This document shows, one piece after another, positions 520 through 17,820 of a DNA stretch of 54,370 nucleotides (the first letter of the stretch is position 1; each line of letters begins with the position of its first letter). Source of the DNA: Planctomycetota bacterium (GTDB taxonomy: Bacteria > Planctomycetota > Brocadiia > Brocadiales > Bathyanammoxibiaceae); the NCBI GenBank assembly GCA_023261505.1, contig JAHFOV010000005.1, forward strand, positions 6,322 to 60,691. Reading direction: 5' to 3'. Both the position numbers and the translations under genes were made by a program. The notes beneath the pieces were generated by a model that was not told the DNA's origin, did no database searches, and saw only the letters and a list, made by a program, of their open reading frames with translations.

Positions 520-2607
520 CTAAATTCCACACCTATTACCAATTATTTCCACAACATCCAGCACCTTTACAGTGCCAATATTTTTTGCTTTTAATCCATT
601 GGTGAGCATTGTTAGACAGAAGGGGCATGCGGTCGCGATGATATTAGCCCCCGTACCAAGGGCTTGCTCTGTGCGCATTTCGTTAATATTTCGCCCCAAC
701 CTGAGTTCCATCCACATGTGCCCTCCCCCACCCCCACAGCAGAAACCTTTGTTTCTGCTACTTTCCATCTCTTTAAACCCCAATCCGAGCCTTTTCAATA
801 TGTTTCTCGGGGGTTCATAAATGTCGTTGTGCCTGCCTAGATAACAGGGGTCGTGGTATGTAATCATTTCTTCCCTAGTCCCCCTCTTTCCCCCTTTATT
901 AAAGGGGGATTTAGGGGGATTATCCATTAGGAATGGCATGCGAGACAGAAGTCGCTCTATGTACTGTGTATGGTGCCACACCTTGAAATGTCCCCCAAAC
1001 TGGGGATACTCATTCTTTAGTGTGTTAAAGCAGTGAGGGCAACAGGTAACGATTTCTTTGATGTTGTATCTTTTCAGAAGTTCTATGTTCTCTCTGGCCA
1101 GGCGCTGGAACTCAAACTCATTACCAACCCTCCTCAGCGGGTCGCCATTACATCGTTCTTCCCTTCCCAGGATGGTAAAATCCACTCCTGCCTTCTGCAA
1201 AATTTTTGCAAAGGCCCTGACCGCCTTCCGGTTACGCTCATCAAAGGCCCCTGCACAGCCCACCCAAAATAGTAGGGGCATGGCGCGCCGTGCCCCTACG
1301 GGTTCCTGATGCAAGACCTTGATGCCCAGTCCTTCTGCCCAAGCCTCCCTTTTCTCCTGACTAAAGCCGTAAGGATTTTTGGTTGTTTCTATGTTCTTCA
1401 TGGTCCTGATAATTTCTGAGGGATACTTACCCAGCATCAGACCATGTCCACGTCTAAGGTCAATAATTTTCTGCAGATGTTCTATTCCTGCGGGGCAGGC
1501 CTCCTGGCAGGTCAGGCAGGCGGTGCAGGACCATGCTTCCATCGGGTCAATTTTGCCATCCATCAAGGGCGTGGGGACATCCTTTTCCATTTGTTCTTTA
1601 ACATCCAGGATAATCTTCTGTGGTCTGAGAGGTTTTCCGCTCAATGTGGCTGGACAGTAGGCATCACACCTGCCGCACCTCATGCAGGCATCCACATCAA
1701 GTAGTTGCTTCCAGGTAAAGTCTTTTGGAGTAATCGCTCCAAAGACATTTTTCTCAGCGGCCTGCCCTGAACCACTACGGTTCAGGGCCTGCTCAAAATC
1801 TATAGGGCTAAGTGCTCCCCTGGGAGTGGCGTGGGGCAAAAATAGGTTCAAAGGGACGGTAATGAGGTGTAAGAGGTTGGAGTAAGGTATATAGGCTATG
1901 AAGAACATAGCCATGCAAAGGTGAAACCACCACAGATTTCTGTGCAGGCTTTTAAGTGACGATTCTCTTAGCAGGGCCTTTAGTAACCCAGCAATTTGAT
2001 ACCCTACCGGCGAACAGGTCTCCCAGGGAGGGTTCAAAACGGCAATCCTGGACCCCTCTATAAGGAAGCCGGTTACAAGTATGAGAAATAATAGGCCCAG
2101 GATTACGGCATCCTCGGGCCTGTTTTTAAAATGCTTATGTTCTGTTAGGTATCGTCTGTAAGAGGCCAATACTATCCCGAGTAGCATCAGGGCGCCAAAG
2201 AGGTCAAGGGTAAAGGAATAATAGAGGTAAAATCTACCGTAAAGGATAGGCCAGTGGAGATGTAGTTGAATGGCTATCAGACAAGTGCCAATAAAGAGGA
2301 CAAAGAATCCAAAAAATATGAGTCCGTGAATAACCCCGGGCCATTTTTCTTTGAGTATTTCCCTGTGGCTGAAGATAAGCCAGAGGGTCTGTAGGGGCAG
2401 GGCTTGCCCCTGCCCAGGTCTTGTCCCAGCCCCATCGTCTTGGGCAACCGTCTGCCTGAGGCGGATTGCCCCTACAGGCCTCCCCTTTGACCAGAAAAGG
2501 TATCTACGATAAATACCGTAAAGAAAGAACCCAAGGGAGAGGGCAAAGAGGACATACATCCATTGATGGTGGTCTATATTCCAGAATATCTCCCTGGTAG
2601 GGAACAT
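520..2607 (-). CDS. Membrane-bound HdrD/GlpC-like Fe-S oxidoreductase, probable ETF:(mena)quinone oxidoreductase
   Basis: The protein has 695 residues. About five membrane helices (residues ~16-34, 93-115, 130-150, 168-186, 225-248) form a NarI/HdrE-like cytochrome b domain. A [4Fe-4S] dicluster domain follows (CMRCGRCDAYCP at 308-319, CTACLTCQEACP at 361-372), then two CCG domains (~451-525 and ~587-665, with CCGGGGGHMW). This order matches the DUF224 family proposed to pass electrons from electron-transfer flavoprotein to menaquinone in syntrophs and Geobacter. The acyl-CoA dehydrogenase ending 43 bp upstream fits that role; no etfAB lies nearby. Four repeat palindromes are carried in frame (2391-2475, 1764-1788, 1272-1299, 881-919). 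The sulfur and flavin partners are inferred, not seen; other HdrD-like roles remain possible. Confidence 0.8.
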   Translation of the reverse strand: MFPTREIFWNIDHHQWMYVLFALSLGFFLYGIYRRYLFWSKGRPVGAIRLRQTVAQDDGAGTRPGQGQALPLQTLWLIFSHREILKEKWPGVIHGLIFFGFFVLFIGTCLIAIQLHLHWPILYGRFYLYYSFTLDLFGALMLLGIVLASYRRYLTEHKHFKNRPEDAVILGLLFLILVTGFLIEGSRIAVLNPPWETCSPVGYQIAGLLKALLRESSLKSLHRNLWWFHLCMAMFFIAYIPYSNLLHLITVPLNLFLPHATPRGALSPIDFEQALNRSGSGQAAEKNVFGAITPKDFTWKQLLDVDACMRCGRCDAYCPATLSGKPLRPQKIILDVKEQMEKDVPTPLMDGKIDPMEAWSCTACLTCQEACPAGIEHLQKIIDLRRGHGLMLGKYPSEIIRTMKNIETTKNPYGFSQEKREAWAEGLGIKVLHQEPVGARRAMPLLFWVGCAGAFDERNRKAVRAFAKILQKAGVDFTILGREERCNGDPLRRVGNEFEFQRLARENIELLKRYNIKEIVTCCPHCFNTLKNEYPQFGGHFKVWHHTQYIERLLSRMPFLMDNPPKSPFNKGGKRGTREEMITYHDPCYLGRHNDIYEPPRNILKRLGLGFKEMESSRNKGFCCGGGGGHMWMELRLGRNINEMRTEQALGTGANIIATACPFCLTMLTNGLKAKNIGTVKVLDVVEIIGNRCGI
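881..919. repeat. Family B palindrome, in-frame in the Fe-S oxidoreductase
   Basis: A C-run/G-run inverted repeat (CCCCCTTTATT / AAAGGGGGAT, then AGGGGGA). It is translated on the minus strand as NPPKSPFNKGG at residues ~563-573, between the two CCG domains. Confidence 0.85.
1272..1299. repeat. Family A variant palindrome, in-frame
   Basis: GTAGGGGCATGG..CCGTGCCCCTAC palindrome. It is read as VGARRAMPLL immediately before the first CCG motif (FWVGCAGAF) of the Fe-S oxidoreductase. Its ends match those of 283-311 but its centre differs. Confidence 0.85.
1764..1788. repeat. Palindrome GCCCTGAACC..GGTTCAGGGC, in-frame
   Basis: Inverted repeat read as LNRSGSGQA (residues ~275-283) in the linker between the membrane domain and the dicluster domain of the Fe-S oxidoreductase. 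Confidence 0.75.
2391..2475. repeat. Compound family A element, in-frame in a cytoplasmic loop
   Basis: Begins GTAGGGGCA and ends TGCCCCTAC, with an inner GGGGCAGGGC/GCCCCTGCCC pair and a CCTGAGGCGGA motif. It encodes residues ~45-72 of the Fe-S oxidoreductase (rich in G, Q, A, R), located between the first two membrane helices. Confidence 0.8.
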
Positions 2608-2650
2608 TAAAGCTTAAATGTTTAAGGGTTCAAAAGTTTAAGGTTAGTGG

Positions 2651-3808
2651 TCAGGCGAAGGCCTTCAGCCCCAGTATCTCCCGGGCTATAATAAGTTTCT
2701 GTATCTCAGAAGTTCCTTCGTATATAGTAGCTACCCTTGCATCACGATAGTGGCGTTCTATGGGGAATTCGTTAGAGTAACCGTATGCCCCGTGTATTTG
2801 AAGGGCTATGTAGGTAACCTTCTGTGCTGCCTCTGAAGCAAAATACTTGGCTATAGAGGTCACAAAGGTGCTCTTTTCTCCTTTGTTCTTCACATGGGCG
2901 GCCTTATATACCAGAAGCCTTGCGGCCTCCGTCTCCACAACCATCCTGGCAATCATATCCTGTACGAGCTGGAAGGAACCGATGGGTTTATCAAATTGTA
3001 CCCTAGCTCTGGCATAAGACACACTTGCGTCAATGCAGGCCTGACAGGTGCCCACACAACCTGCGGCTACGCTGAACCTGCCATTATCCAGCGCACTCAT
3101 TGCAAGCTTGAAGCCGTTCCCAACGCCTCCCAACATGGCCTCTTCGGGTATGGCGCAGTCCTGAAAAATCATCTCCGCTGTATTAGAGGCCCTGAGACCC
3201 AGCTTATTTTCTATATCACGTGTCTGGTAGCCCTGCACCTTATCACGCTCCACTATAAAGGCAGTAAGCCCTTCGTGTTTTTTTGTCTTATCCGTGCGGG
3301 CAATTACAATGGCAATATCTGCCACGCCTGCATTAGAAATCCAGGTCTTGGTGCCATTAAGAATCCACTTGCCCCCCTTTAGTACAGCAGAGGTACTCAC
3401 ATTGGCCGCATCGCTACCTGCATTGGGTTCCGTAAGGCCAAAGCATCCGATAATTTCACCACTGCAGAGGCGAGGGAGATATTTTCTCTTTTGCTCCTCT
3501 GTGCCCCAGTTAAAGATTAAGAGTTCCACCAGCGAGACCTGCACAGAAAGAGTAGTTCTCACTGAGGAGCACCCTCTGCCTACCTCTTCTGTAATGATGG
3601 CGTGGCTAATAAAATCCAGCCCAGCGCCACCATACTCCTCAGGGATAACAGCCCCCAATAGACCCAGAGGGGCCATCTTCTTGAGAATCTCCCTGGGGAA
3701 GTGACACTTCATGTCATTCTCCCTGGCCACAGGGATAATCTCCTCGTCCACGAACTTCTTTACCATCTCTTTTACAAGCCTCTGTTCCTGGGTCAGCTCA
3801 AAGTCCAT
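2651..3808 (-). CDS. Acyl-CoA dehydrogenase (short/branched-chain type)
   Basis: 385 residues, the normal family length. FAD enzyme that introduces the alpha-beta double bond into acyl-CoA and passes electrons to ETF. Visible signatures: FGLTEPNAGSDA, the KTWISNAG flavin-contact region, and near the C-terminus YEGTSEIQ, whose Glu (~364) is at the position of the catalytic base in butyryl-CoA/glutaryl-CoA-type members. The start ATG is preceded by GAGGAGG at ideal spacing. The gene lies directly upstream of the membrane Fe-S oxidoreductase on the same strand, suggesting a module from acyl-CoA oxidation to the quinone pool. Substrate chain length cannot be told from sequence. Confidence 0.9.
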   Translation of the reverse strand: MDFELTQEQRLVKEMVKKFVDEEIIPVARENDMKCHFPREILKKMAPLGLLGAVIPEEYGGAGLDFISHAIITEEVGRGCSSVRTTLSVQVSLVELLIFNWGTEEQKRKYLPRLCSGEIIGCFGLTEPNAGSDAANVSTSAVLKGGKWILNGTKTWISNAGVADIAIVIARTDKTKKHEGLTAFIVERDKVQGYQTRDIENKLGLRASNTAEMIFQDCAIPEEAMLGGVGNGFKLAMSALDNGRFSVAAGCVGTCQACIDASVSYARARVQFDKPIGSFQLVQDMIARMVVETEAARLLVYKAAHVKNKGEKSTFVTSIAKYFASEAAQKVTYIALQIHGAYGYSNEFPIERHYRDARVATIYEGTSEIQKLIIAREILGLKAFA

Positions 3809-6690: not shown

Positions 6691-8166
6691 CTAAGGAGTT
6701 GTATCCCCATCTGAAGGTCTTGATACTGGTCGGAGGAGGGGAAATAGTATTACTTCTCGAATAGATGTGCAATTAGTCAGTATCATTATAAGCCTGTCAA
6801 TTCCAATGCCTAGTCCCCCCGCGGGGGGCATTCCGTACTTGAGCGCCAGCAAAAAGTCTTCATCCACCTTGCCGGCGGTCATTTCGGTGCCAGCCTGTTC
6901 CATGAACCTCTGCCGTTGTTCCAGAGGGGCGTTGAGTTCGGTGTAGGAATTTGCCAGTTCCATGCCTGCAATGTACAGCTCAAAACGCTGGGCCAATTCT
7001 GGCTTGCCTTCGCACAGCCTGGTCAAGGGGCAGAGTGAAGCAGGGTAGTCCAGGACAAAAGTAGGCTCCCAAAGGTTAGTCTCCACTAATTCTTCAAAGA
7101 TTTCATTAGCAATTTTGTCCCGGTTGCCCCCATGTGTGCTTAGCCCAAGCTCCTCAGCCTTCTTCATAAGACTTTTAAGATCGTAAAAATCTACTTCTGC
7201 ATAGTTTTTGAGGAGTTCAACAAAGGTAATCCTCCTCCAAGGAGGTGTCATATCAACAGTCCTCTCTCCATAGGGAATCCGGTAAGCACCATGGAGTTCC
7301 ATAACCAGGGAGGTAATCATACTCTCTGTTAATTCCATCATGTCATTGTAATCGGCATAGGCCTGGTAGGCTTCAAGCATAGTAAACTCTGGGTTATGAC
7401 GGGTGGAAATGCCCTCATTGCGAAAGTTGCGATTTATCTCGTAGACCCTCTCCATTCCTCCCACCAGGAGCCTCTTAAGATAGAGTTCTGGGGCTATGCG
7501 GAGATAAAGGTCTATGTCAAGGGTGTTATGGTGGGTGATGAAGGGTCTTGCCACTGCTCCACCTGGGATAGGCTGCATCATAGGGGTCTCCACTTCTACG
7601 TAACCCCTTTCGTCAAAAAACCTTCTGGTGCCCCTGATAATTTTTACCCTGTTCAGAGAGGTCTTCATTGTCTCAGGGTTAGAGATAAGGTCAAGGTATC
7701 GCTGTCGGTGTCGCAGTTCAACATCCTTCAGGCCGTGCCATTTTTCTGGTGGAGGCAAGAGCGCCTTGGAGAGGAGAGTAAAATTCTCCACTAGGATAGT
7801 TATTTCGCCTGTTCTAGTTTTGAAGACAGTTCCTTCGGCGCCAATGATGTCTCCAATGTCAAGGAGTTTGAATAGCTCAAATTTACCTTCGCCAATTAGG
7901 TCTTTTTTTATATATAGTTGAATCTTACCAGTCCAATCCTTTATATCCAGAAAGGAGGCCTTACCGTGGGGCCTGAGGGTAGCTATTCTACCCGCGGCCC
8001 GTACATGCTTGCCCTCCTCGTTATTGTAATTTTCTACGATGGATTTCAGGCTTTCCTGCCCATTGAACCTCTTACCATAAGGCTCTACCCCCATGGCTTT
8101 GAGCTTTTCTAACTTCTCTAGACGATCTTGTTCAAACTTCTCCATTTTCACTTTTCCCAATAACAC
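6691..8166 (-). CDS. lysS: Lysyl-tRNA synthetase, class II
   Basis: 491 residues. N-terminal OB-fold anticodon-binding domain (~residues 55-150) followed by the class II catalytic core: motif 2 RNFRNEGISTRHNPEFTMLE and motif 3 GLGIGIDRLIMILT. Charges tRNA-Lys in the cytoplasm. Three start codons are possible: GTG at 8164-8166, TTG six bases further, and ATG at 8143-8145 (giving MEKFEQDRLEKL). The ATG gives the usual LysS N-terminus, whereas GAGGAAG is best spaced for the TTG, so the first 7 residues are uncertain. The end of the gene abuts lolD. Confidence 0.95.
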   Translation of the reverse strand: MLLGKVKMEKFEQDRLEKLEKLKAMGVEPYGKRFNGQESLKSIVENYNNEEGKHVRAAGRIATLRPHGKASFLDIKDWTGKIQLYIKKDLIGEGKFELFKLLDIGDIIGAEGTVFKTRTGEITILVENFTLLSKALLPPPEKWHGLKDVELRHRQRYLDLISNPETMKTSLNRVKIIRGTRRFFDERGYVEVETPMMQPIPGGAVARPFITHHNTLDIDLYLRIAPELYLKRLLVGGMERVYEINRNFRNEGISTRHNPEFTMLEAYQAYADYNDMMELTESMITSLVMELHGAYRIPYGERTVDMTPPWRRITFVELLKNYAEVDFYDLKSLMKKAEELGLSTHGGNRDKIANEIFEELVETNLWEPTFVLDYPASLCPLTRLCEGKPELAQRFELYIAGMELANSYTELNAPLEQRQRFMEQAGTEMTAGKVDEDFLLALKYGMPPAGGLGIGIDRLIMILTNCTSIREVILFPLLRPVSRPSDGDTTP

Positions 8167-8487
8167 TTCCTCGCCATTCTATCAAGAAAAGTAGGACTGT
8201 CAAGATTGTTAGCCTGAACTTTGAACAAGAGTTACGACATTAAGTAACTTTTAAATGGCCGGTGGCGATACATCCTTCTTAGATATGCCTTTCTTAAGAT
8301 TATTTTAAGATGTATAATAATTATTTTGTCTGCTTCTACCTCTATGGGCCTGCTTATTTTTTCGAGTTTTACAGCCTATCCTGCATTACTGCAATCTACC
8401 CAGCTACTGCCTTTCAAGACCTTCTTTTTAAGTTTTTTCTTGTAACTGGGTATAATATAGAAAGTAAAATATGAAAAAGGATTAAGC
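8167..8487. other. Divergent lysS/rnpA intergenic region
   Basis: 321 bp, AT-rich, with TATAAT boxes at 8313-8318 and 8451-8456 on the plus strand. No rpmH (L34) gene is present, although L34 usually precedes rnpA. A 44-codon aromatic-rich ORF here lacks a ribosome binding site and was not called. Confidence 0.6.
8428..8456 (+). promoter_or_regulatory. Probable promoter for rnpA
   Basis: A perfect TATAAT at 8451-8456 lies 31 bp before the rnpA ATG. The -35 region (TTAAGT, 17 bp upstream) is weak. Confidence 0.4.
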
Positions 8488-8844
8488 ATGCCTGAGAAAA
8501 GTTTTTCCAAGGAAGAGAGGTTGAGGAAGAGAAGGGAATTTGACAGGGTCTTCCAAGGAGGGAAGGTCTTTAAAGGGGCAATCTTCAATGCTTATGCACT
8601 CGGCAATTCTTTGGGACATCCCCGTATCGGAATAGTCGTGGGAAGGAAGTTTGGTGGTGCGGTACAGCGTAACCGCATCAAGCGCCTCCTCCGGGAAGCT
8701 TACAGGTTGAACAAAAACCTCATAGGGGCGGGCCTCGATATAGTGCTTCTCCCCAGGCCAGGCCATGAGGCCAATTTTAAGTTGTTAGAAAAAGAATTCA
8801 AGAATTTAATAGAGAGGATAAAGAGAAGAGACAGTAGACAGTAG
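8488..8844 (+). CDS. rnpA: Ribonuclease P protein component
   Basis: 118 residues, the family norm. It assists the RNase P RNA in removing 5' leaders from pre-tRNAs. The N-terminus FSKEERLRKRREFDRVFQGG and the RNR motif block QRNRIKRLLREAYR are diagnostic. The start ATG is preceded by AAAGGA (AAAAAGGATTAAGCATG). It is followed after a repeat-filled gap by yidD, part of the usual rnpA-yidD-yidC order, but rpmH upstream and yidC downstream are both missing here. Confidence 0.95.
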   Translation: MPEKSFSKEERLRKRREFDRVFQGGKVFKGAIFNAYALGNSLGHPRIGIVVGRKFGGAVQRNRIKRLLREAYRLNKNLIGAGLDIVLLPRPGHEANFKLLEKEFKNLIERIKRRDSRQ

Positions 8845-9236: not shown

Positions 9237-9554
9237 TTACACTTGGTCAGGGGGTGCACTAGAAGGCAATTCTTTATAGAAGCCATTTTCTTTAAGCTTC
9301 TTGTAAATTTCCAGGCCCTTTTCTGAGGGTTTTACCTCGTAGAAGACGGAGCTGTACTCATAATTCTTTTGTCCTTCTATAAGGGAAGAACTAAGTAAGG
9401 CCTCCACATCGTAGAAAGGGCCCCCCAGCCTACCAAAATTACTATACTTCTGGGTAGCCAGGTAATACTCGCATATACTCCCCAGAGTTCTGGCGATGCG
9501 CCTTATAGTCTCAGAATCCTTTATAGCATTCAAAAATTCTTCGTAGGCCTTCAT
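9237..9554 (-). CDS. Small hypothetical protein
   Basis: 105 residues, family not recognised. Mostly helical and charged; it has YLATQKYSNFGRLGGPFYDVE in the middle and KGLEIYKKLKENGFYKEL near the end. No signal peptide, membrane segment or Cys pair motif is apparent. Codon use looks coding, with a clean frame and normal composition. The only upstream purine stretch is GGGC, so initiation would be weak. It is convergent with yidD and divergent from the acpS cluster. The last residues (SSAPPDQV) run into the repeat. Function unknown. Confidence 0.5.
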   Translation of the reverse strand: MKAYEEFLNAIKDSETIRRIARTLGSICEYYLATQKYSNFGRLGGPFYDVEALLSSSLIEGQKNYEYSSVFYEVKPSEKGLEIYKKLKENGFYKELPSSAPPDQV

Positions 9555-9736: not shown

Positions 9737-9765
9737 TTGACAATTTTTAGCACGCGGAGTAAAAT
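9737..9765 (+). promoter_or_regulatory. Sigma70-type promoter of the acyl-chain cluster
   Basis: Consensus -35 TTGACA at 9737-9742, a 17 bp spacer and -10 TAAAAT at 9760-9765. It lies 35 bp before the acpS start and is the best candidate promoter for the run acpS to fabG. Confidence 0.65.
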
Positions 9766-9800
9766 TTTTCAACAAATTACTAAGGAAGGTCTTTAGATAG

Positions 9801-10181
9801 GTGTACATAGGAATAGACTTAGTGGAAGTGAAAAGGATAGAAAACCTTTTCTCTCGTTATGAATCTTTTTTGGGACATATTTACACCACTAAAGAAGTAG
9901 AATATTGCCAGAACAAAAAGAACAAGTTCCAGCACTTTGCGGCTAGATTTGCGACAAAAGAGGCTGTTATTAAGGCTTTAGGAGGGGGGGCGGGTTGGAA
10001 GGACATAGAACTTCTTAACGATCCCACTGGTCGCCCTTATCTACAGCTCTATGGAAGGGCCAGGGAGCGCGCGGAGGCGAAGGGGATTGGTAACTACGAA
10101 GTTTCTGTAACGCATACTAAGGATTACGCTGTTGCTCAGGTGCTCCTCATACCCAGAACACTTTCAGTAGGCAGTAAGTAG
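9801..10181 (+). CDS. acpS: Holo-[acyl-carrier-protein] synthase
   Basis: 126 residues. Transfers 4'-phosphopantetheine from CoA to the conserved Ser of acyl carrier proteins. Signatures are IGIDLVEVKRI at the N-terminus (metal-binding Asp) and FAARFATKEAVIKAL (Glu of the metal site, Lys). The GTG start at 9801 gives the canonical N-terminus; AGGAAGG lies upstream. It heads the radical-SAM/ketosynthase cluster, consistent with a role in loading that pathway's carrier protein, although no acyl carrier protein gene is in the window. The last residues (TLSVGSK) are written by a family F repeat. Confidence 0.93.
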   Translation: MYIGIDLVEVKRIENLFSRYESFLGHIYTTKEVEYCQNKKNKFQHFAARFATKEAVIKALGGGAGWKDIELLNDPTGRPYLQLYGRARERAEAKGIGNYEVSVTHTKDYAVAQVLLIPRTLSVGSK

Positions 10182-10215
10182 TAAGCAGTAGGCACTGCCT
10201 ACTCCTTAGTCCCTA
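10163..10215. repeat. Family F-like repeat after acpS
   Basis: AGTAGGCAGTAAGTAGTAAGCAGTAGGC followed by GCCTACTCCTTAG-type complement, overlapping the acpS 3' end. Potential hairpin between acpS and the radical SAM gene. Confidence 0.6.
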
Positions 10216-10243
10216 GTGCCTAGTAATTTTATTGGGAGATAAG

Positions 10244-11719
10244 ATGAAAAAAAGAAAGCTCATCCTCATAAACCCTCATCCCATAGGGAATGTGGGAGAA
10301 GAAAATGTCTCGGTGCTTAACCAGATGCCTGTAAATCTGGGGTACCTGATAACCCTTACCCCCGAACACTGGGAGGTGAATGTTATAGATGAGACCATAG
10401 AGCTTGCATTAGATGAAAATAATCAGCTAACCTTCCAGGGAGCAGACCTTGTTGGGATAACATCTGTGAGTTATCAAGCACCAAGGGCCTACGCTATTGC
10501 TAGTGCCTGCAAAAAGAGAGGCATCCCCGTAGTGATGGGTGGTGTTCATGCTACTACGTATCCCGGCGAAGTTTCACAACATGTAGACACCGTAGTAACA
10601 AAGGAGGCTATATCAGTATGGGGAAAGCTACTCTCAGACTTTGAGCAGGGGAAGCTTCAAAAACTTTATGATGGCGGGTTAACACCGCTGGAGAACCTTA
10701 ATGGTCTTTACCCTGGCAGGGATTTTTTGAAGAAAAAATATAAGTACCGCTATTCTGGTATCATAACTACTGCGGGTTGCCCTTTTAATTGTGAATTCTG
10801 TTCAGTGCCACAATTCCAGGGGAGGAAATATAGGGAAAGACCAATTGAAGATGTTTTGAAAGAGTTTGAGGCCATAAAGGGACAATATAGAGGTCTTGTC
10901 CTAACAGACGAGAACTTTTACGGTCACAGCAAGAAGTCTAACGATAGGGTTAGATACCTTTTTAAGGACATGGTCGAAAGAGGGATATATCAAAACTGGT
11001 TCGGCTTCACCTCTCTTAATATCTATCAGGATGATGAAACTTTGGACTACATGGTAAGAAGCGGTTGTGTGGGGGTGCTCATTGGCATAGAGTCATTAAA
11101 TAAAGATGCCCTTTATTCTATGAACAAAAATGTAAACTTGAGAATAACTATTGAAAGATACTATGAGGCGGTTAAAAACATCCGCAAGCACGGCATCGCC
11201 GTGTGGGGAACCTTTATCTTCGGTAACGACACCGACACCCCTGAGACCTTTGATGAGGTAGCAGACTTTATCTTGAACTCCCAGATTGATATTATGACCT
11301 GCGGTATTCTTTGCCCATTCATCAATACACCCCTTTACAAGCGGCTCGAGGTTGAAAACAGGCTGTTCCGTAACCACTTTCCCGAAGATTGGATTTATTA
11401 CACCTCCCACCACTTAGTCTATATCCTGAAGAAACTCTCTCTTCAAGAATTGATTGATGGGATGGAGAGACTTTATAACAAGCTCTACTCTACAGAGGCC
11501 ATAAGGAAACGTTTCCAGAACTCAAGAGACGTGCTCCAAAACAATAACTCCGCACTATTTGCCTTGAAGGTAAATTGGGATTGGCGAAACGTCTTTAAAC
11601 ATATGTTAGAAAATCTTAAAACTCTTCAGGCCTCAGGAGTGTATGAAGCAGCCCTGAACCGTATTGGTAGAAAAGAAAGGTACGATGAACCATCCAGATT
11701 AGTGGCTACCAAAATATAA
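10244..11719 (+). CDS. B12-binding-domain radical SAM enzyme
   Basis: About 491 residues. An N-terminal cobalamin-binding Rossmann domain (~residues 1-130, with NPHPIGN, VGITSVSY and VVMGGVHATTYP) precedes a radical SAM core whose cluster-binding Cys are 179, 183 and 186 (CPFNCEFC). The C-terminal part (IAVWGTFIFG.DTDTPETFDE) resembles the DUF4070 group that includes hopanoid and chlorophyll-pathway methylases/cyclases. Such enzymes methylate or rearrange unactivated carbons. The ATG at 10244 has GGAG at 5-base spacing and is preferred over the in-frame TTG at 10232. It sits between acpS and the paired ketosynthases with an 11 bp gap, implying modification of a carrier- or lipid-bound acyl chain. 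Exact reaction unknown. Confidence 0.85.
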   Translation: MKKRKLILINPHPIGNVGEENVSVLNQMPVNLGYLITLTPEHWEVNVIDETIELALDENNQLTFQGADLVGITSVSYQAPRAYAIASACKKRGIPVVMGGVHATTYPGEVSQHVDTVVTKEAISVWGKLLSDFEQGKLQKLYDGGLTPLENLNGLYPGRDFLKKKYKYRYSGIITTAGCPFNCEFCSVPQFQGRKYRERPIEDVLKEFEAIKGQYRGLVLTDENFYGHSKKSNDRVRYLFKDMVERGIYQNWFGFTSLNIYQDDETLDYMVRSGCVGVLIGIESLNKDALYSMNKNVNLRITIERYYEAVKNIRKHGIAVWGTFIFGNDTDTPETFDEVADFILNSQIDIMTCGILCPFINTPLYKRLEVENRLFRNHFPEDWIYYTSHHLVYILKKLSLQELIDGMERLYNKLYSTEAIRKRFQNSRDVLQNNNSALFALKVNWDWRNVFKHMLENLKTLQASGVYEAALNRIGRKERYDEPSRLVATKI

Positions 11720-11730
11720 AAGGAATTAGT

Positions 11731-12939
11731 ATGCAAAGAGTGGTGGTAACAGGTATTGGTCTAGTAACAGCCCTCGGTGCCAACGTTAAAGAATCATGGG
11801 AGACAATGTTGGCTGGCAAAGACGGTATAGCTGAGATAACCTCCTTTGATACCTCCATGTACAAGGTTCACAAGGCCTGTGAGGTAAGAAAATTAAATTC
11901 CAACGGACACCTAATCACCAAAAAGCCCTTTACGGTGTATGATTGTCTACTGGCGGCGGCCGGGGAGGCCATGGAAGATAGCGGCCTAAATATTTATAAA
12001 CTTTTAAACAGGGAAAGGGTTGGAGTTTCAGTTGGTACCCTTGCCGGGGAACTCTCCCTCTTTGAGCAAAGACTGAGAAATCACCACGAGAACAAGGCAG
12101 ATGGATTTGACATAGACGTGGCCATGAACTATCCACCAATGACCCTTTCCACTCAACTGGCTGAGGCATTTCAATTGGAAGGGCCTAATATAATCCTCAT
12201 AAATGCCTGCTCCTCAGGTAACCACGCCATTTGCTGGGCCTTTGATGCCATACGGGAGGGCAAGGTAGATGCCATGGTGGTAGGGGGCAGTGATGTTGTA
12301 CCTCAGACAGAATTTACTCACTTCCACAACCTGAAGGCCCTTGCTCCTGAAAAATGTCAGCCTTTTGATAAGAATCGACAGGGATTGGTAGTGGGGGCAG
12401 GGGCTGGTGTTCTCATACTGGAATCTCTTGAGATGGCCTCAAAAAGAGAGGCCAAAACATACGCTGAAATAAAGGGATACGGACTCAGTAGTGATGGCTA
12501 TCATATGACAGCTCCCCACCCTAGCGGAGAAGGGGCAGCGAGGGCCATGGAGTTATCCCTACTCTCAGCAAGATTATCCTATAAAGACGTTGATTACATA
12601 AGTGCGCACGGTACCGGTACACCCTTGAACGATAAAATGGAAACCCTCGCCCTTCAGACTGTCTTTCAGGAAAGGGCCCAGCACCTCCCTTGTAGTTCCG
12701 TGAAGTCTATGATAGGCCATACTATGGGGGCAGCTAGCGCTATTGAATCCATAGTCTGCTGTCTGGTTATAAAAGAAGGGGTTATTCCGCCTACTATTAA
12801 CTTTGAGACAAAAGACCCGGAGTGTAACATAGATTGTGTCCCAAATCAGGCCAGGGAATATAAGGCAAATTACACCCTAAATAACTCCTTCGCCTTCGGC
12901 GGGAACAATGCTAGTATTATCTTTGGTAGAACCCAATAG
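11731..12939 (+). CDS. Beta-ketoacyl-ACP synthase, FabF-like, catalytically intact (KS-alpha)
   Basis: 402 residues, thiolase fold. Performs decarboxylative condensation of acyl-ACP with malonyl-ACP. The catalytic triad is complete: Cys160 in NACSSGNHA, His293 in SAHGTGTP and His330 in KSMIGHTMGA. It is more divergent than a housekeeping FabF (NACSSGN rather than VSACATGxH), closer to ketosynthases of specialised pathways. Start ATG with AAGGA upstream. The next gene is a ketosynthase paralogue without the triad, 27 bp downstream, so the pair resembles the KS-alpha/KS-beta heterodimers of type II polyketide and aryl-polyene systems. Confidence 0.9.
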   Translation: MQRVVVTGIGLVTALGANVKESWETMLAGKDGIAEITSFDTSMYKVHKACEVRKLNSNGHLITKKPFTVYDCLLAAAGEAMEDSGLNIYKLLNRERVGVSVGTLAGELSLFEQRLRNHHENKADGFDIDVAMNYPPMTLSTQLAEAFQLEGPNIILINACSSGNHAICWAFDAIREGKVDAMVVGGSDVVPQTEFTHFHNLKALAPEKCQPFDKNRQGLVVGAGAGVLILESLEMASKREAKTYAEIKGYGLSSDGYHMTAPHPSGEGAARAMELSLLSARLSYKDVDYISAHGTGTPLNDKMETLALQTVFQERAQHLPCSSVKSMIGHTMGAASAIESIVCCLVIKEGVIPPTINFETKDPECNIDCVPNQAREYKANYTLNNSFAFGGNNASIIFGRTQ

Positions 12940-12966
12940 CCCGACAAAAAGAGGGGGTATCTGGAA

Positions 12967-14241
12967 ATGGCCAACCTAAAGAAGGTAGAAAGACAAGCAA
13001 GCACTAAAAAAAAGGTAGTAATAACCGGCATCGGTATTATCTCACCACTAGGTATTGGCCATAAAGCATTCTGGACAAATCTTGTCGAAGGTCGTTCGGG
13101 GGTTTCTCCAATAACTTCCATTGACGTGTCTTCCTACCCATGCAAGCTTGCCGCAGAGGTCAGGGACTTTAATGCAGGAGATTATCTGGGAGATAAAGGT
13201 CTCAAGTACTTAACAAAGGGCACCAAGTTTCTTGCCTCTGCCATTAAACTGGCACTTGAGGATGCTCAGCTACAAAACAATGGTAATTTCCCAGAATATG
13301 CGGGGGTTATAATAGGCTCTGCATTGGGTAATTACTCTCAAACCACAGACTATACTTACAACATATTTAAACTTGGTCCTGACAAACTACTCCCCATGGC
13401 TAGTTACGATGTGGCCCTTAACTCTTCCATCAATTTTGCCTCAGTATTCTTCAAGCTAAAGGGTCCCTCTAGAACCATCTCCTCTGGTTTCACTTCCAGC
13501 ATAGATGCTATAGGCAATGCCTTCAACCTTATTAGAAATAATAGCGATAACCTCCTTATAACCGGCGGTGTGGAGCAAATATCCCTGGATAGCTATCTCC
13601 TATTCCTCCTCCAGGGTCTCCTGTCTGGCTCTCACAACTCAGGGCCTGAAAAGAGCAGTCCCTTCGACAAGCATAGAAATGGTTTCGTCTTAGGTGAAGG
13701 AAGCTATGTCCTTATCCTGGAGGAACTAGACTCAGCCCTCAGGCGTGGAGCAAAAATATATGCTGAGGTAATGGGTTACGGCACAACGTACGTAGGAAGT
13801 AATAGATTCGACTTGGAAGAAAAAACAAGGAGGGTACAAAGGGCCATGGAGCTGGCCCTGGAGGATGGTGCTCTTTCCAGCGACTCTCTTGACCTCATCT
13901 ACGCCAATGGAAATTCCAGTAAACTCCTAGATATGATAGAGGCTCGAGCAATAAAGAATTGTTTGGGAAACACCTTAGGAAATGTATTAATTGCCTCTGC
14001 AAAGCCTCTTGCCGGTGAGTGCTACGGTGCATCTGGTGCTATGCAAGTAGCGTCTTGCGCATTAAGCATGGAAAATTCGCTAGTCCCTCCTATCGCCAAC
14101 CTGCAAGTCCCTGACCCTGAATGCAACCTTAATCTGGTTACAAAGAAGTCGCTTCAAAGAGACGTACATTTTGCTATGGTAAACTCTATAGACCCTGCTG
14201 GGAGTTGTTCTTGTTTGATCCTGGGAAAGGGTCAACCTTAG
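12967..14241 (+). CDS. Ketosynthase-like protein lacking the catalytic triad (KS-beta / chain-length-factor-like)
   Basis: 424 residues with the FabF fold pattern (TGIGIISPLGIGH, GVIIGSALG, SPFDKHRNGFVLGEGSYVLILEE). Aligned gaplessly with its neighbour, the nucleophile Cys becomes Phe175 (GPSRTISSGF), the first His becomes Asn314 (YANGNSS) and the second His becomes Glu351 (PLAGECYGAS). It therefore cannot condense. In type II polyketide systems the inactive partner shapes chain length; here that role is an inference. The substitutions differ from the classical Cys-to-Gln of chain-length factors. The frame is open throughout and the start ATG has no strong Shine-Dalgarno sequence, consistent with read-on from the upstream gene. 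Confidence 0.85.
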   Translation: MANLKKVERQASTKKKVVITGIGIISPLGIGHKAFWTNLVEGRSGVSPITSIDVSSYPCKLAAEVRDFNAGDYLGDKGLKYLTKGTKFLASAIKLALEDAQLQNNGNFPEYAGVIIGSALGNYSQTTDYTYNIFKLGPDKLLPMASYDVALNSSINFASVFFKLKGPSRTISSGFTSSIDAIGNAFNLIRNNSDNLLITGGVEQISLDSYLLFLLQGLLSGSHNSGPEKSSPFDKHRNGFVLGEGSYVLILEELDSALRRGAKIYAEVMGYGTTYVGSNRFDLEEKTRRVQRAMELALEDGALSSDSLDLIYANGNSSKLLDMIEARAIKNCLGNTLGNVLIASAKPLAGECYGASGAMQVASCALSMENSLVPPIANLQVPDPECNLNLVTKKSLQRDVHFAMVNSIDPAGSCSCLILGKGQP

Positions 14242-14410
14242 ACAATGCCCGAATCGCAACTGCAGCCTTCCTGTAAGTGTTCTTTTAACAACCCATCCTA
14301 TACAGGCAGATGTCGCAGGCGCCCTGAAATGGAAATATCGGAACGCATCCCCTATAATTAATGCAATAGTGGCGTGGCATGTTGTTTCTATTAATTAAAG
14401 TGAAATAACT

Positions 14411-16441
14411 ATGATAAGTCTTTTTGACAAGGCAAATATTGGACCTCTGGAGCTTAAAAACCGGTTGATTATGACGGCCATGGATGTGGGTTTTTCTACA
14501 GATGGCTTTATAAACGACCGCTTCATAGACTTTTACGCTGAGAGGGCAAGGGGTGGAGTGAGCCTAATAATAATAGGAGGTTGCTACCCTCACGAGAGTG
14601 GAAAGCACTGGAAGAGTATACTTGGCCTGGATGAAGACCTCTATATCCCCAGCCTTAAAAGGTTTACCGAAGCCATGCACCAACTCGGGGCTAAAACCGC
14701 CACCCAACTCCTTCATGGAGGTCGTTACGCCTCTAGCCTCTTCACAAAAAGGCAACCTGTATCCGCCTCCAGCGTGCCAAGCCGCCTGGCCAAGGATATT
14801 CCTAGACCCCTTACCATTCCCGAAATAAAAGAGATAATTAACAGTTACGCCAGGGCCGCTTTCAGGGCTAGGGAGGCGGGTTTTGATGCCGTGGAAATCC
14901 ATGGTGGCATGGGGTACCTAATAAACCAATTCTTATCACCTATAACCAATCAGAGAAAAGATGAGTACGGAGGGGATCTGCAGGGCAGACTCAGATTCGC
15001 CAGAGAGGTCGTGCAAGCTACCAGGGAGCTCGTGGAAAAGGATTTTCCTATTATCTTTAGGCTAGCGGGGGATGAGCTAATGATGGGGGGAAACAGGATA
15101 AAAGAGAACATCGAGATTGCCAGAGAATTAGCCAGAGTAGGGGTAGACGCCTTTCATGTCTCTCCAGGATGGCACGAGAGCAAGACCCCTATAATGGTTA
15201 TGGCCATTCCGAGAATGGCCTACACCTTCCTAGCGGCCTCTATCAAAGAGAATGTTAACCTGCCTGTTATAGCAGGTGTAAGGATAAATGACCTCTCGGT
15301 GGCTGAAGAATTCCTTAGAGATGGCCAAGCAGACTTTATAGCCATAGGCCGCCCCCTCATTGCAGACCCTGAACTTCCCAAAAAATATAGAGAAGGAACA
15401 TGGGAAGATATCAGGACGTGCATTGCGTGTAACCAGGGATGCTTTGATGAACTCTTGAATATGAAACCCATCTCCTGTCTTTACAACCCACAGGTGGGCC
15501 ATGAAAGAGAGTATATTATCAAGGAAGCACCTGTAAAGAAGAGGGTAATGATTGTAGGTGGCGGTCCTGGAGGGATGGAGGCTGCCAGAGTGGCTGCCTT
15601 GAGAGGACACCAGGTTGCCCTTTATGAAAAGGACTGCTACCTTGGGGGACAGCTACATTACGCCTACAAGCCTCCTGGTCGGGGAGAGTTCCAACATGTT
15701 ATCAGTTACCTTGAAAGACAAATACTAAAATTAGGGGTAAGTGTGAATCTTGGGATAAAGGTTGATACAGAGCTTATTAAAAAGGAACAACCACAGGTAG
15801 TTATTCTCTCCACAGGCTCCCTACCAATTATTCCCCCCATACTAGGGGTAAATGGCAAAAACGTGGTACTTGCCAGGGATGTCCTGGAGAGGAGGGTGCC
15901 GGTTGGAAATCCTGTGGCTATTATAGGGGGTGGGTCAGTGGGATGCGAAGTGGCCCTTTATGTGGCTAAACTGGGAAGCATGAGCCCAGAAGTAGCCCTC
16001 TTCCTCTTAAAGCACCAGATAATAGACCTTGCTACTGCCCTCCAGAGGACCCTCAGAGGGCACCGCAAGGTCACTGTACTTGAAATGAAGAAAAGACTGG
16101 GAAGCGGATTTGGACTTTCTACCCGTTGGGTCATCCTTCAGGAGATGGAAGAAACAGGTATAGAGACCCTAACCGGGGTAAAGGTAAAAGAGATAAAAGA
16201 ATCCGCCTCAGGCGGACCTGGGGGGATTCTATACGAGAAAGAAGGTAGAGGTGGGAGTGACCCTGCCACCTTTTTGCCTGCTGAAACAATCATCCTGGCA
16301 ACGGGCTACATGCCAAACAACTCCCTCTATCAGCAAATGGACAGCCTGGTGCCGGAGATGTATGCCATAGGGGATTGTGTGAAGGTCAGGACGGCTATGG
16401 AGGCCATCCACGAGGGTTTTAAAATCTCACTGAACATATAA
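14411..16441 (+). CDS. Old-yellow-enzyme/2,4-dienoyl-CoA-reductase-type flavoprotein
   Basis: 676 residues. An N-terminal FMN TIM barrel (LFDKANIGPLELKNR, EIHGGMGYLINQFLSP, HVSPGWHE) is followed by a [4Fe-4S] site with Cys337, 340, 344 and 356 (CIACNQGC..SC), then FAD- and NAD(P)-binding Rossmann regions (MIVGGGPGGMEAA at ~378; AIIGGGSVGCEVA). This matches FadH/BaiCD/BaiH-type NADH:flavin oxidoreductases that reduce conjugated enoyl or dienoyl thioesters. In this cluster it could reduce double bonds of the chain built by the ketosynthase pair. ESASGGPGG near residue 600 is encoded by a CCGCCTCAGGCGG repeat. A 169 bp gap separates it from the KS-beta gene. Confidence 0.88.
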   Translation: MISLFDKANIGPLELKNRLIMTAMDVGFSTDGFINDRFIDFYAERARGGVSLIIIGGCYPHESGKHWKSILGLDEDLYIPSLKRFTEAMHQLGAKTATQLLHGGRYASSLFTKRQPVSASSVPSRLAKDIPRPLTIPEIKEIINSYARAAFRAREAGFDAVEIHGGMGYLINQFLSPITNQRKDEYGGDLQGRLRFAREVVQATRELVEKDFPIIFRLAGDELMMGGNRIKENIEIARELARVGVDAFHVSPGWHESKTPIMVMAIPRMAYTFLAASIKENVNLPVIAGVRINDLSVAEEFLRDGQADFIAIGRPLIADPELPKKYREGTWEDIRTCIACNQGCFDELLNMKPISCLYNPQVGHEREYIIKEAPVKKRVMIVGGGPGGMEAARVAALRGHQVALYEKDCYLGGQLHYAYKPPGRGEFQHVISYLERQILKLGVSVNLGIKVDTELIKKEQPQVVILSTGSLPIIPPILGVNGKNVVLARDVLERRVPVGNPVAIIGGGSVGCEVALYVAKLGSMSPEVALFLLKHQIIDLATALQRTLRGHRKVTVLEMKKRLGSGFGLSTRWVILQEMEETGIETLTGVKVKEIKESASGGPGGILYEKEGRGGSDPATFLPAETIILATGYMPNNSLYQQMDSLVPEMYAIGDCVKVRTAMEAIHEGFKISLNI

Positions 16442-16442
16442 A

Positions 16443-16568
16443 AAAGTGACTTTAGACTTTGGACTATAGACATTAGACTTTACACTGCGGACTATAGAAC
16501 GTAGACTTTTCTGCTTAAAGTGGAAGAATACCCTGTTTTTAGTCTAAAGTCCAAAGTCTAAAGTCTAA
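16443..16568. repeat. Family G GACTTTAGACTTTGG inverted repeat
   Basis: GACTTTAGACTTTGGACTATAGAC units on the left and AGTCTAAAGTCCAAAGTCTAAAG on the right can pair into a long stem between the flavoprotein and fabG genes. No copy elsewhere in the window. Confidence 0.7.
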
Positions 16569-16588
16569 TATAGAAATGGAGATTATCC

Positions 16589-17332
16589 ATGTCCTTAAAA
16601 GGTAAGGTGGCAATAGTAACAGGTGGAACCAGGGGTATAGGGAGGGCTATTGTACAGGAACTGGCTAAGAACGGTGTGGACGTGGCCTTCAACTTCCTCA
16701 AGAACTTAGAAAAGGCAAAAGAGGTAGAAAACGAGCTAAATAATCTTGGAGTAAAGGCTTTGCCTGTACAATGCAACGTGGCTGACTTCAATCAGTCCAA
16801 AGAAATGGCAACCACCGCCCTAAAGCACTTTGGGAAGATAGATATTCTTGTAAACAACGCAGGCATTACCAGGGATAATCTTATGATGAGGATGAGTGAG
16901 CAGGAATGGAAGGAGGTAATAGACACTAACCTGAATGGAGCATTCAATATTACAAGGGCTGTGGTATTCCCCATGATGAAGCAAAAGAGTGGTTCTATTA
17001 TAAATATAACCTCCGTAAGTGGGATTATAGGCATGATGGGGCAGGCCAACTATGCCGCCTCTAAGGCAGGGCTTATAGGATTCACAAAGTCTCTCGCCAA
17101 GGAACTAGCCAGATTCAATATTTCAGTAAATGCCGTAGCACCAGGATTCATAGACACTGAGATGACCCAGATGCTGGACAAGAAATATATAGAAGAGGCT
17201 CTTAAGCTTATTCCCATGGGACGAATTGGCAAGCCAGAGGAGATAGGTAAGGCTGTTATATTCTTGGTTTCCGATGCCTCGAGCTATATCACGGGCCAAG
17301 TCCTGAGTGTAGATGGCGGCCTGGCCATGTAA
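16589..17332 (+). CDS. fabG: 3-oxoacyl-[ACP] reductase
   Basis: 247 residues, the FabG norm. NADPH-binding TGGTRGIGRA, the NNAG motif, active-site Ser142, Tyr155 and Lys159 (YAASK), and the C-terminal SYITGQVLSVDGGLAM typical of FabG. Reduces beta-ketoacyl-ACP to the 3-hydroxy form, the step after ketosynthase condensation. It is the closest housekeeping-like member of this cluster. No dehydratase (FabZ), enoyl reductase (FabI) or ACP gene is present, so the pathway must share those from elsewhere or use the flavoprotein upstream as enoyl/dienoyl reductase. Confidence 0.93.
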   Translation: MSLKGKVAIVTGGTRGIGRAIVQELAKNGVDVAFNFLKNLEKAKEVENELNNLGVKALPVQCNVADFNQSKEMATTALKHFGKIDILVNNAGITRDNLMMRMSEQEWKEVIDTNLNGAFNITRAVVFPMMKQKSGSIINITSVSGIIGMMGQANYAASKAGLIGFTKSLAKELARFNISVNAVAPGFIDTEMTQMLDKKYIEEALKLIPMGRIGKPEEIGKAVIFLVSDASSYITGQVLSVDGGLAM

Positions 17333-17333
17333 A

Positions 17334-17458
17334 AAAAATTGCAAATTACAAATTTCAAATTTTGATTTTTGATACGAATTTTTCAACGGCTAGACTGGAG
17401 GGCAGATAATAAAGAATACAAATTACAAATTTGTAATCTATAATTTGTAATCTGCAAT
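17334..17458. repeat. Family E AT-rich repeat after fabG
   Basis: AAATTGCAAATTACAAATTTC units and a second block AATTACAAATTTGTAATC with its complement. Potential hairpins around 17340-17360 and 17415-17457. Confidence 0.65.
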
Positions 17459-17466
17459 ATGAATTT

Positions 17467-17820
17467 ATGCTCTTTCTTGTAAAGGTTGAAATAGAAAAAC
17501 TTCCTCAAATACCTACTAGAAACTTCTTTGAACTACTCGTCAAGGAATGGGAGTATTACGAGCGGATGAAGAAGAGAGGGAAGGTGCTGGCCGGGGGTAA
17601 ACTGGCGGGTAGACGCGGCGCTGCCGCTATTTTCGATGCAGACTCAAGTGAGGAGATAGAGGCGATTGTAACTAAACTTCCCCTTTTCCCATTCTTTACC
17701 AAGATAGAAATAACCCCGTTAGTCCCTCAGGAGAAGGCCCTTTTAGACGCCAAAAGGATGTACCAGTTGGTAAAAGATTCCAACCTGATGCTCTTCCCCA
17801 CCGGCACCGAGCCTAAATAA
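17467..17820 (+). CDS. Muconolactone-isomerase-family protein
   Basis: 117 residues. The N-terminus MLFLVKVEIEKLP, the central GGKLAGRRGAAAIFDADSSEE and LPLFPFFTKIEITPLV match the small ferredoxin-like muconolactone delta-isomerase fold, which forms homo-oligomers. True muconolactone isomerases act in aromatic ring catabolism, but many relatives have no known substrate and no catechol pathway is in this window. It is ~20 residues longer than the classical enzyme at the C-terminus. It follows fabG on the same strand after a repeat block. Its role, possibly in double-bond or ring isomerisation of the cluster product, is speculative. Confidence 0.7.
   Translation: MLFLVKVEIEKLPQIPTRNFFELLVKEWEYYERMKKRGKVLAGGKLAGRRGAAAIFDADSSEEIEAIVTKLPLFPFFTKIEITPLVPQEKALLDAKRMYQLVKDSNLMLFPTGTEPK

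Follow-up and report, generated by a model that had tools for sequence, protein, structure and literature searches.

The window analysed here is a 54,370-nucleotide stretch of a Planctomycetota genome (GenBank assembly GCA_023261505.1, contig JAHFOV010000005.1, positions 6,322 to 60,691 of the forward strand). Seven intact open reading frames (ORFs), all on the plus strand, lie at 9801-17820 and were identified by Pfam and NCBIfam profiles. They encode a holo-acyl carrier protein (ACP) synthase, a cobalamin-binding radical S-adenosylmethionine (radical SAM) protein, here rSAM1, two adjoining ketosynthases (KS), KS-alpha and KS-beta, a flavoprotein of the old yellow enzyme (OYE) type, FabG and a protein resembling muconolactone isomerase. 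An earlier sequence-only reading of this DNA had listed the seven genes in this order and with these identities, and the profiles agree with it throughout. The genes are set out below together with two promoter-like sites.

9737-9765, plus strand: promoter-like site TTGACA-17-TAAAAT upstream of acpS, the best in the region in a consensus scan (11/12), a score that is not evidence of function
9801-10181, plus strand: acpS, holo-ACP synthase (PF01648, 70 bits; TIGR00516, 86 bits, above the cut-off)
10232-11719, plus strand: rSAM1, cobalamin-binding radical SAM protein, kuste2803 orthologue (PF04055; PF02310 below the cut-off)
11731-12939, plus strand: KS-alpha, FabF-like ketosynthase, kuste2804 orthologue (catalytic residues kept; best PDB match 9s5h chain B)
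12967-14241, plus strand: KS-beta, chain-length-factor-like non-catalytic ketosynthase, kuste2805 orthologue (residue pattern of Kuste2805)
14330-14358, plus strand: second promoter-like site, upstream of OYE (consensus scan, 10/12)
14411-16441, plus strand: OYE, FadH-type FMN-FAD-4Fe4S dienoyl reductase (414 bits to E. coli 2,4-dienoyl-CoA reductase, 1ps9)
16589-17332, plus strand: fabG, 3-oxoacyl-ACP reductase (TIGR01830, 335 bits, above the cut-off)
17467-17820, plus strand: muconolactone-isomerase-like protein, proposed double-bond isomerase (PF02426, 56 bits)

The first four genes have the same identities and the same order as kuste2802 (acpS), kuste2803 (B12 radical SAM), kuste2804 (FabF) and kuste2805 (non-canonical KS), the cluster of the anammox bacterium Kuenenia that has been proposed for ladderanes (Rattray 2009, PMC2649909; Javidpour 2016, PMC4790861). 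The core of the pathway is not new, this four-gene core having been proposed for ladderanes in 2009, and the sequence-only suggestion of a pathway unlike known clusters is not supported. The sequence-only reading was right, on the other hand, about an acyl-chain cluster, now seen to be conserved, in which a B12 radical SAM enzyme accompanies paired KS-alpha and KS-beta, and right to compare it with anammox bacteria and ladderanes. Compared with a genome of the genus Kuenenia (G031), identities are about 71% for rSAM1, 55% for KS-alpha and 51% for KS-beta. The window KS-beta shares Phe163, Asn298, Asn300, Lys328, Glu333 and Gln342 with Kuste2805 (PMC2649909 Table 2) and differs from it at position 302 (Cys to Ser) and at the variable position 392 (Phe to Ile).

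The two loci part company after the fourth gene. In the window OYE, fabG and the isomerase-like gene lie directly downstream, whereas in the complete genome G031 a distance of about 0.3 Mb separates the KS pair from OYE and a crotonase gene, which sit together, and fabG and the isomerase gene share another place. Exactly the four genes, in the same order, make up the loci of Kuenenia hertensis (L113), Brocadia pituitae (L118) and Loosdrechtia (L115), while loci of Bathyanammoxibiaceae, Scalindua and Jettenia continue after the fourth gene with OYE, fabG and the isomerase gene. Across anammox families this order is retained at identities of 50-90%. Of 52 genomes, 36 have KS-beta and OYE on one strand and at most 6 kb apart (8/8 in the family of the window and 15/15 in the Scalindua family), and in 25 genomes KS-beta, OYE and the isomerase gene share one stretch. 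In loci of the Scalindua and Jettenia types (L058 10279-11079, L061, L060, L064, L070) the crotonase gene (PF00378, 162 bits) separates OYE from fabG. OYE and the crotonase gene adjoin in 41 of 44 cases; in Brocadia pituitae (G014) the crotonase gene is found beside KS-beta with OYE elsewhere. From such partial groupings it follows that OYE, fabG, the isomerase gene and, where present, the crotonase gene form with the four-gene core one functional set, which was dispersed at a later time. Brocadiales inherited the seven-gene order from their ancestor, and Kuenenia and Brocadia have since lost it by rearrangement. In most anammox families OYE, fabG and the isomerase gene are part of the locus, as the crotonase gene is in the other families. 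None of these four genes is included among the 34 ladderane candidates whose expression failed in E. coli. OYE had been named among the features that set the cluster apart, but it is a regular member, and Kuenenia, in which the locus was defined, is among the lineages where it has moved away. Chance neighbourhood is ruled out by this conservation of order across genomes.

The terms dienoyl reductase and muconolactone isomerase are absent from the text of PMC4790861 and PMC2649909, and the OYE, crotonase and isomerase genes do not appear in the gene tables of the two Kuenenia papers that were consulted. No publication adding OYE, crotonase, fabG and the isomerase gene to the locus was found in the open-licence literature.

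The sequence-only reading had taken the seven genes for a single promoter-led run. A promoter-like site does precede acpS; promoter-like matches in the region number 20 against 13.6 +/- 3.8 in shuffled sequences, and given this mild excess and the second site before OYE one transcription run is not proven. The second site lies in a 169-base gap (14242-14410). OYE and the genes downstream of it may be transcribed on their own, which would agree with the subsequent dispersal of this side of the locus. There is no ACP gene between 9237 and 17900 and no FabZ or FabI gene in the cluster. The sequence-only reading had remarked on the lack of all three, correctly for the cluster itself, but ACP and FabZ head a sister cluster in the same genome.

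This sister cluster (L010 9642-15789, on G000 contig C128) has the arrangement ACP-FabZ-KS-KS-desaturase-rSAM in the order of kuste3603-3608. Its KS-alpha, KS-beta and radical SAM protein (rSAM2) are paralogous to those of the window; unlike the window locus, the kuste3603-3608 type has its own ACP, FabZ and phytoene-desaturase-like protein. The sister-cluster KS-beta is close to chain C of PDB entry 9s5h and its KS-alpha is related to chain B, so that a single solved entry contains the two partners of such a pair; 9s5h and 9s5i represent the KS pair of the kuste3603-3608 type. The trees place KS-alpha 1 and KS-alpha 2 as sisters, unite the KS-betas in one group and show rSAM1 as monophyletic beside rSAM2 and rSAM3, a topology that fits duplication of a KS-KS-rSAM unit. 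The third radical SAM paralogue (L012 9584-11017, on G000 contig C99) is 55% identical to rSAM1, has no adjoining KS pair and is kept in the family of the window.

Of 75 genomes of the class, 62 are Brocadiales and 13 are not; at the threshold used, KS-beta orthologues were found in 56 of the former and in none of the latter. The corresponding counts are 56/62 and 0/13 for OYE at E 1e-120, and 55/62 and 0/13 for the isomerase at the threshold used. Orthologues of rSAM1 at >= 67% identity occur in Brocadiales only, among the 392 planctomycete genomes that this search covered. KS-beta patterns, which reach close relatives only, were run against 84,980 species and returned 46 loci, whose labels name anammox genera, Brocadiales or uncultured planctomycetes in every case save one; this one is labelled only 'uncultured bacterium', and the cluster is present in it. 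The genomes compared are mostly metagenome-assembled genomes (MAGs). Within Brocadiales the locus is near-universal, single-copy and vertically inherited, its genes being conserved together across anammox families. Brocadiales MAGs in which no hydrazine synthase alpha gene was detected (G061, with L056 and L057, and several f3 genomes) also keep KS-rSAM clusters; these may reflect incompleteness or a real hzs-less lineage.

The host itself is an anammox bacterium, as its own 2.5 Mb, 96% complete assembly, which contains the window, encodes a hydrazine synthase alpha subunit (HzsA) scoring 1221 bits against the Kuenenia structure PDB 5c2v. Its nearest relatives are the MAGs RIFCSPHIGHO2_12_FULL_52_36, NC_groundwater_1467 and FULL_50_35 (loci L076, L077 and L080), which are listed under Ca. 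Bathyanammoxibiaceae (PMC9723696), and the host belongs with this family.

KS-alpha retains the catalytic Cys, His, His, Lys and Glu in 28 of 28 sequences. In KS-beta Phe replaces the Cys, Asn and Glu replace the two His, and Gln replaces the Glu, and among its orthologues Phe at position 163 is found in 30/30, Asn298 in 29/30, and Glu333 and Gln342 in 30/30 each. An intact ketosynthase next to one stripped of its catalytic residues, as the sequence alone had suggested, is thus what the locus encodes. The same feature, a catalytic KS adjoining a non-catalytic partner, is common to the KS and chain-length factor (CLF) pairs of type II polyketide and aryl-polyene systems, and KS-beta also matches actinorhodin KS/CLF chains. 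Classical CLFs have Gln standing in for the active Cys; here the position is occupied by Phe throughout, and the cluster differs from those systems also in its lack of an ACP.

The three cysteines of the CPFNCEFC motif in rSAM1 (Cys183, Cys187 and Cys190, a CxxxCxxC cluster) are kept in 27 of 27 orthologues; identity of rSAM1 across Brocadiales is 67-91%. Its N-terminal cobalamin-domain match to PF02310 reaches 28 bits against a cut-off of 32. No curated NCBIfam subfamily model is matched above its cut-off; the top score, far sub-threshold, is 95.5 to the PhpK P-methyltransferase model (cut-off 600), and the BchE, HpnJ and HpnR models give 82, 82 and 68 bits (cut-offs 481, 578 and 650). Two candidate identities were ruled out, TIGR04072 (rSAM_ladder_B12) at 71 bits against a cut-off of 360 and a tRNA-modification radical SAM enzyme, the MiaB and RimO models scoring at most 47 bits. 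Of the two findings that the sequence-only reading would have taken as refutation, genes not kept as a group elsewhere and a radical SAM protein of an unrelated pathway such as tRNA modification, neither was obtained. The AlphaFold model of rSAM1, with a mean pLDDT of 61 and pTM of 0.48, is too poor for use.

OYE is a full-length FadH-like protein in which Tyr169, His255 and Cys337, Cys340, Cys344 and Cys356 are present in 18 of 18 orthologues, matching Tyr166, His252 and the four Fe-S cysteines of E. coli FadH (1ps9). BaiCD and bilirubin reductase likewise share full-length similarity, the catalytic Tyr and His and the four cysteines with it, but OYE falls below the curated cut-offs of the BaiCD, bilirubin reductase and mycofactocin OYE models. 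From this residue pattern OYE is proposed to reduce dienoyl thioesters. The isomerase-like protein was modelled with a pLDDT of 88, and a Foldseek search of the PDB matched its fold to ClcF (E 6e-8) and to muconolactone isomerase. Its Glu27, invariant in 14 orthologues, aligns with Glu27 of ClcF, the residue mutated in the ClcF substrate complex 3zo7. It scores 42.9 bits against the cut-off of 130.6 for the muconolactone Delta-isomerase equivalog TIGR03221 and, unlike muconolactone isomerase and ClcF, has a longer C-terminus and no aromatic-degradation context.

Taken together, it seems probable, though well short of certain, that the seven genes are the Bathyanammoxibiaceae version of an anammox-specific locus for making and modifying a special ACP-bound acyl chain, with ladderane fatty acids of the anammoxosome membrane as the most likely product. 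The most likely role of the locus would be to build the ladderane chain and cyclise it. The sequences themselves establish gene content, orthology, synteny, conserved catalytic residues and, in the data searched, restriction to Brocadiales; from these residues and the established chemistry of FabF/CLF, FabG, FadH, muconolactone isomerase and cobalamin radical SAM enzymes we infer the following heterodimer, substrates, order of steps, ring formation and product. AcpS would prime an ACP from outside the locus, probably that of the ACP-FabZ-KS-KS-desaturase-rSAM2 sister cluster. A KS-alpha/KS-beta heterodimer would condense malonyl units, with KS-beta as the non-catalytic partner shaping the chain, and FabG would reduce the ketone. 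Dehydration could be carried out by the sister-cluster FabZ or, in other families, by the crotonase. The muconolactone-isomerase-like protein may then move double bonds via Glu27, and OYE may reduce chosen dienoyl thioesters via Tyr169 and His255, such that a defined polyunsaturated chain remains. On this chain rSAM1 would initiate radical carbon-carbon bond formation; the ring-forming step is a proposal in the literature too (PMC13142503).

Several points weigh against the ladderane assignment. Expression of 34 Kuenenia candidates, the four core genes among them, gave no ladderanes in E. coli, although most of the proteins were insoluble or undetected (PMC4790861). No lipid data were found for Bathyanammoxibiaceae. 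No crotonase orthologue is present in the family of the window, while elsewhere this gene travels with OYE. Restriction to one order is expected of any clade-specific gene, and since the co-occurrence represents a single evolutionary event it cannot prove function.

It is also conceivable, if unlikely, that rSAM1 is a cobalamin-dependent C-methylase acting on the chain made by the KS pair, the product being a methyl-branched acyl chain and the ladderane rings being the work of other enzymes. Mid-chain methyl-branched fatty acids do occur in anammox bacteria, which counts in favour of such a methylase, as does the position of the PhpK model at the top of the rSAM1 scores. Cobalamin-dependent radical SAM enzymes are moreover predominantly methylases (PMC13142503), a further point against a ring-forming rSAM1. 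However, the non-methylating BchE and HpnJ score nearly as high as PhpK, and a plain methylase leaves the co-travel of KS-beta, the dienoyl reductase and the isomerase unexplained.

Rather improbable is another anammox-specific polyene or polyketide, such as a pigment, a quinone-like or a signalling compound, unrelated to ladderanes. Type II polyketide and aryl-polyene systems typically have pairs of KS-alpha and KS-beta, and the match of KS-beta to actinorhodin chains points the same way. A related KS-KS-rSAM system is also found in a planctomycete outside Brocadiales (G253), whose sole hydrazine-synthase-alpha-domain match is weak and partial (34.5 bits). This genome carries, at L151 2020-14080 and L152 6029-9976, an ACP-FabZ-KS-KS-desaturase-rSAM-FabG set, a second KS-KS-rSAM set and an isomerase homologue at 51%, and its lineage may make ladderane-like or polyene lipids. 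The system of this lineage, though, is of the sister-cluster type and not of the window type. The window locus has no ACP, cyclase, transporter or tailoring gene, and near-universal, single-copy, vertical inheritance throughout the order Brocadiales would be unusual for a secondary metabolite.

There is very little chance that these are ordinary housekeeping fatty-acid genes, neighbours by accident and with a decaying KS-beta, for while the Kuenenia acpS appears to be a single housekeeping copy (PMC2649909 Table 1) and FabG and FabF-like proteins are common, the KS-beta substitutions are fixed, the order is kept over deep divergence and a housekeeping FabF lies beside an ACP-like ORF elsewhere in the genome (L013), so that conserved synteny and the invariant non-catalytic residues largely refute this explanation.

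Around the locus, lysS and rnpA lie upstream at 6691-8844. Several loci of the Scalindua type (L088, L089, L092, L101) have the same two genes next to their isomerase end, a neighbourhood that is old and shared. A 105-residue ORF at 9237-9554 on the minus strand, directly upstream of the cluster, has no Pfam or NCBIfam match. At 520-3808, also on the minus strand, an acyl-CoA dehydrogenase stands beside a Fe-S/CCG membrane oxidoreductase; together they may serve acyl chains as an electron-transfer pair. No RNA or tRNA features were seen within the window, and it had no match in a plasmid collection.

The list of candidate ladderane genes can also be shortened. Genomes of the window's family and of Scalindua have FabF and the two KS pairs with no further KS; G005 shows three KS only, and the six rows for G057 come from a split gene. 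Extra KS occur in Kuenenia, Jettenia and other Brocadiaceae, including a pair at 845-850 kb of G031 beside a TIGR04072 protein. As Scalindua, in whose enrichments C18 and C20 [3]- and [5]-ladderanes are found (PMC3558802), makes ladderanes without them, the extra ketosynthases are not required, and those of kuste3346 and kuste3349 look dispensable. TIGR04072 is a B12 radical SAM family named after ladderane bacteria, yet it is above the cut-off in only 10 of the 75 class genomes, three of them outside Brocadiales, and has no match at E 1e-60 in the genome of the window. The family does not track ladderane makers, and its name is probably misleading. A more tentative proposal, which may well prove wrong, is that the seven-gene locus (eight genes with the crotonase) and the sister cluster form the full specialised ladderane gene set, that kuste3335-3352 is not needed, and that the failure in E. 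coli was due in part to the missing OYE, crotonase and muconolactone-isomerase-like protein.

Ladderanes are lipids with fused cyclobutane rings whose biosynthesis has been open for two decades. The candidate list for it gains three or four genes that were hidden in the Kuenenia genome by scattering, and part of the large Kuenenia cluster is argued against by ladderane-making Scalindua that lack its ketosynthases. The outcome is a short, testable gene set and the prediction that Bathyanammoxibiaceae make ladderanes.

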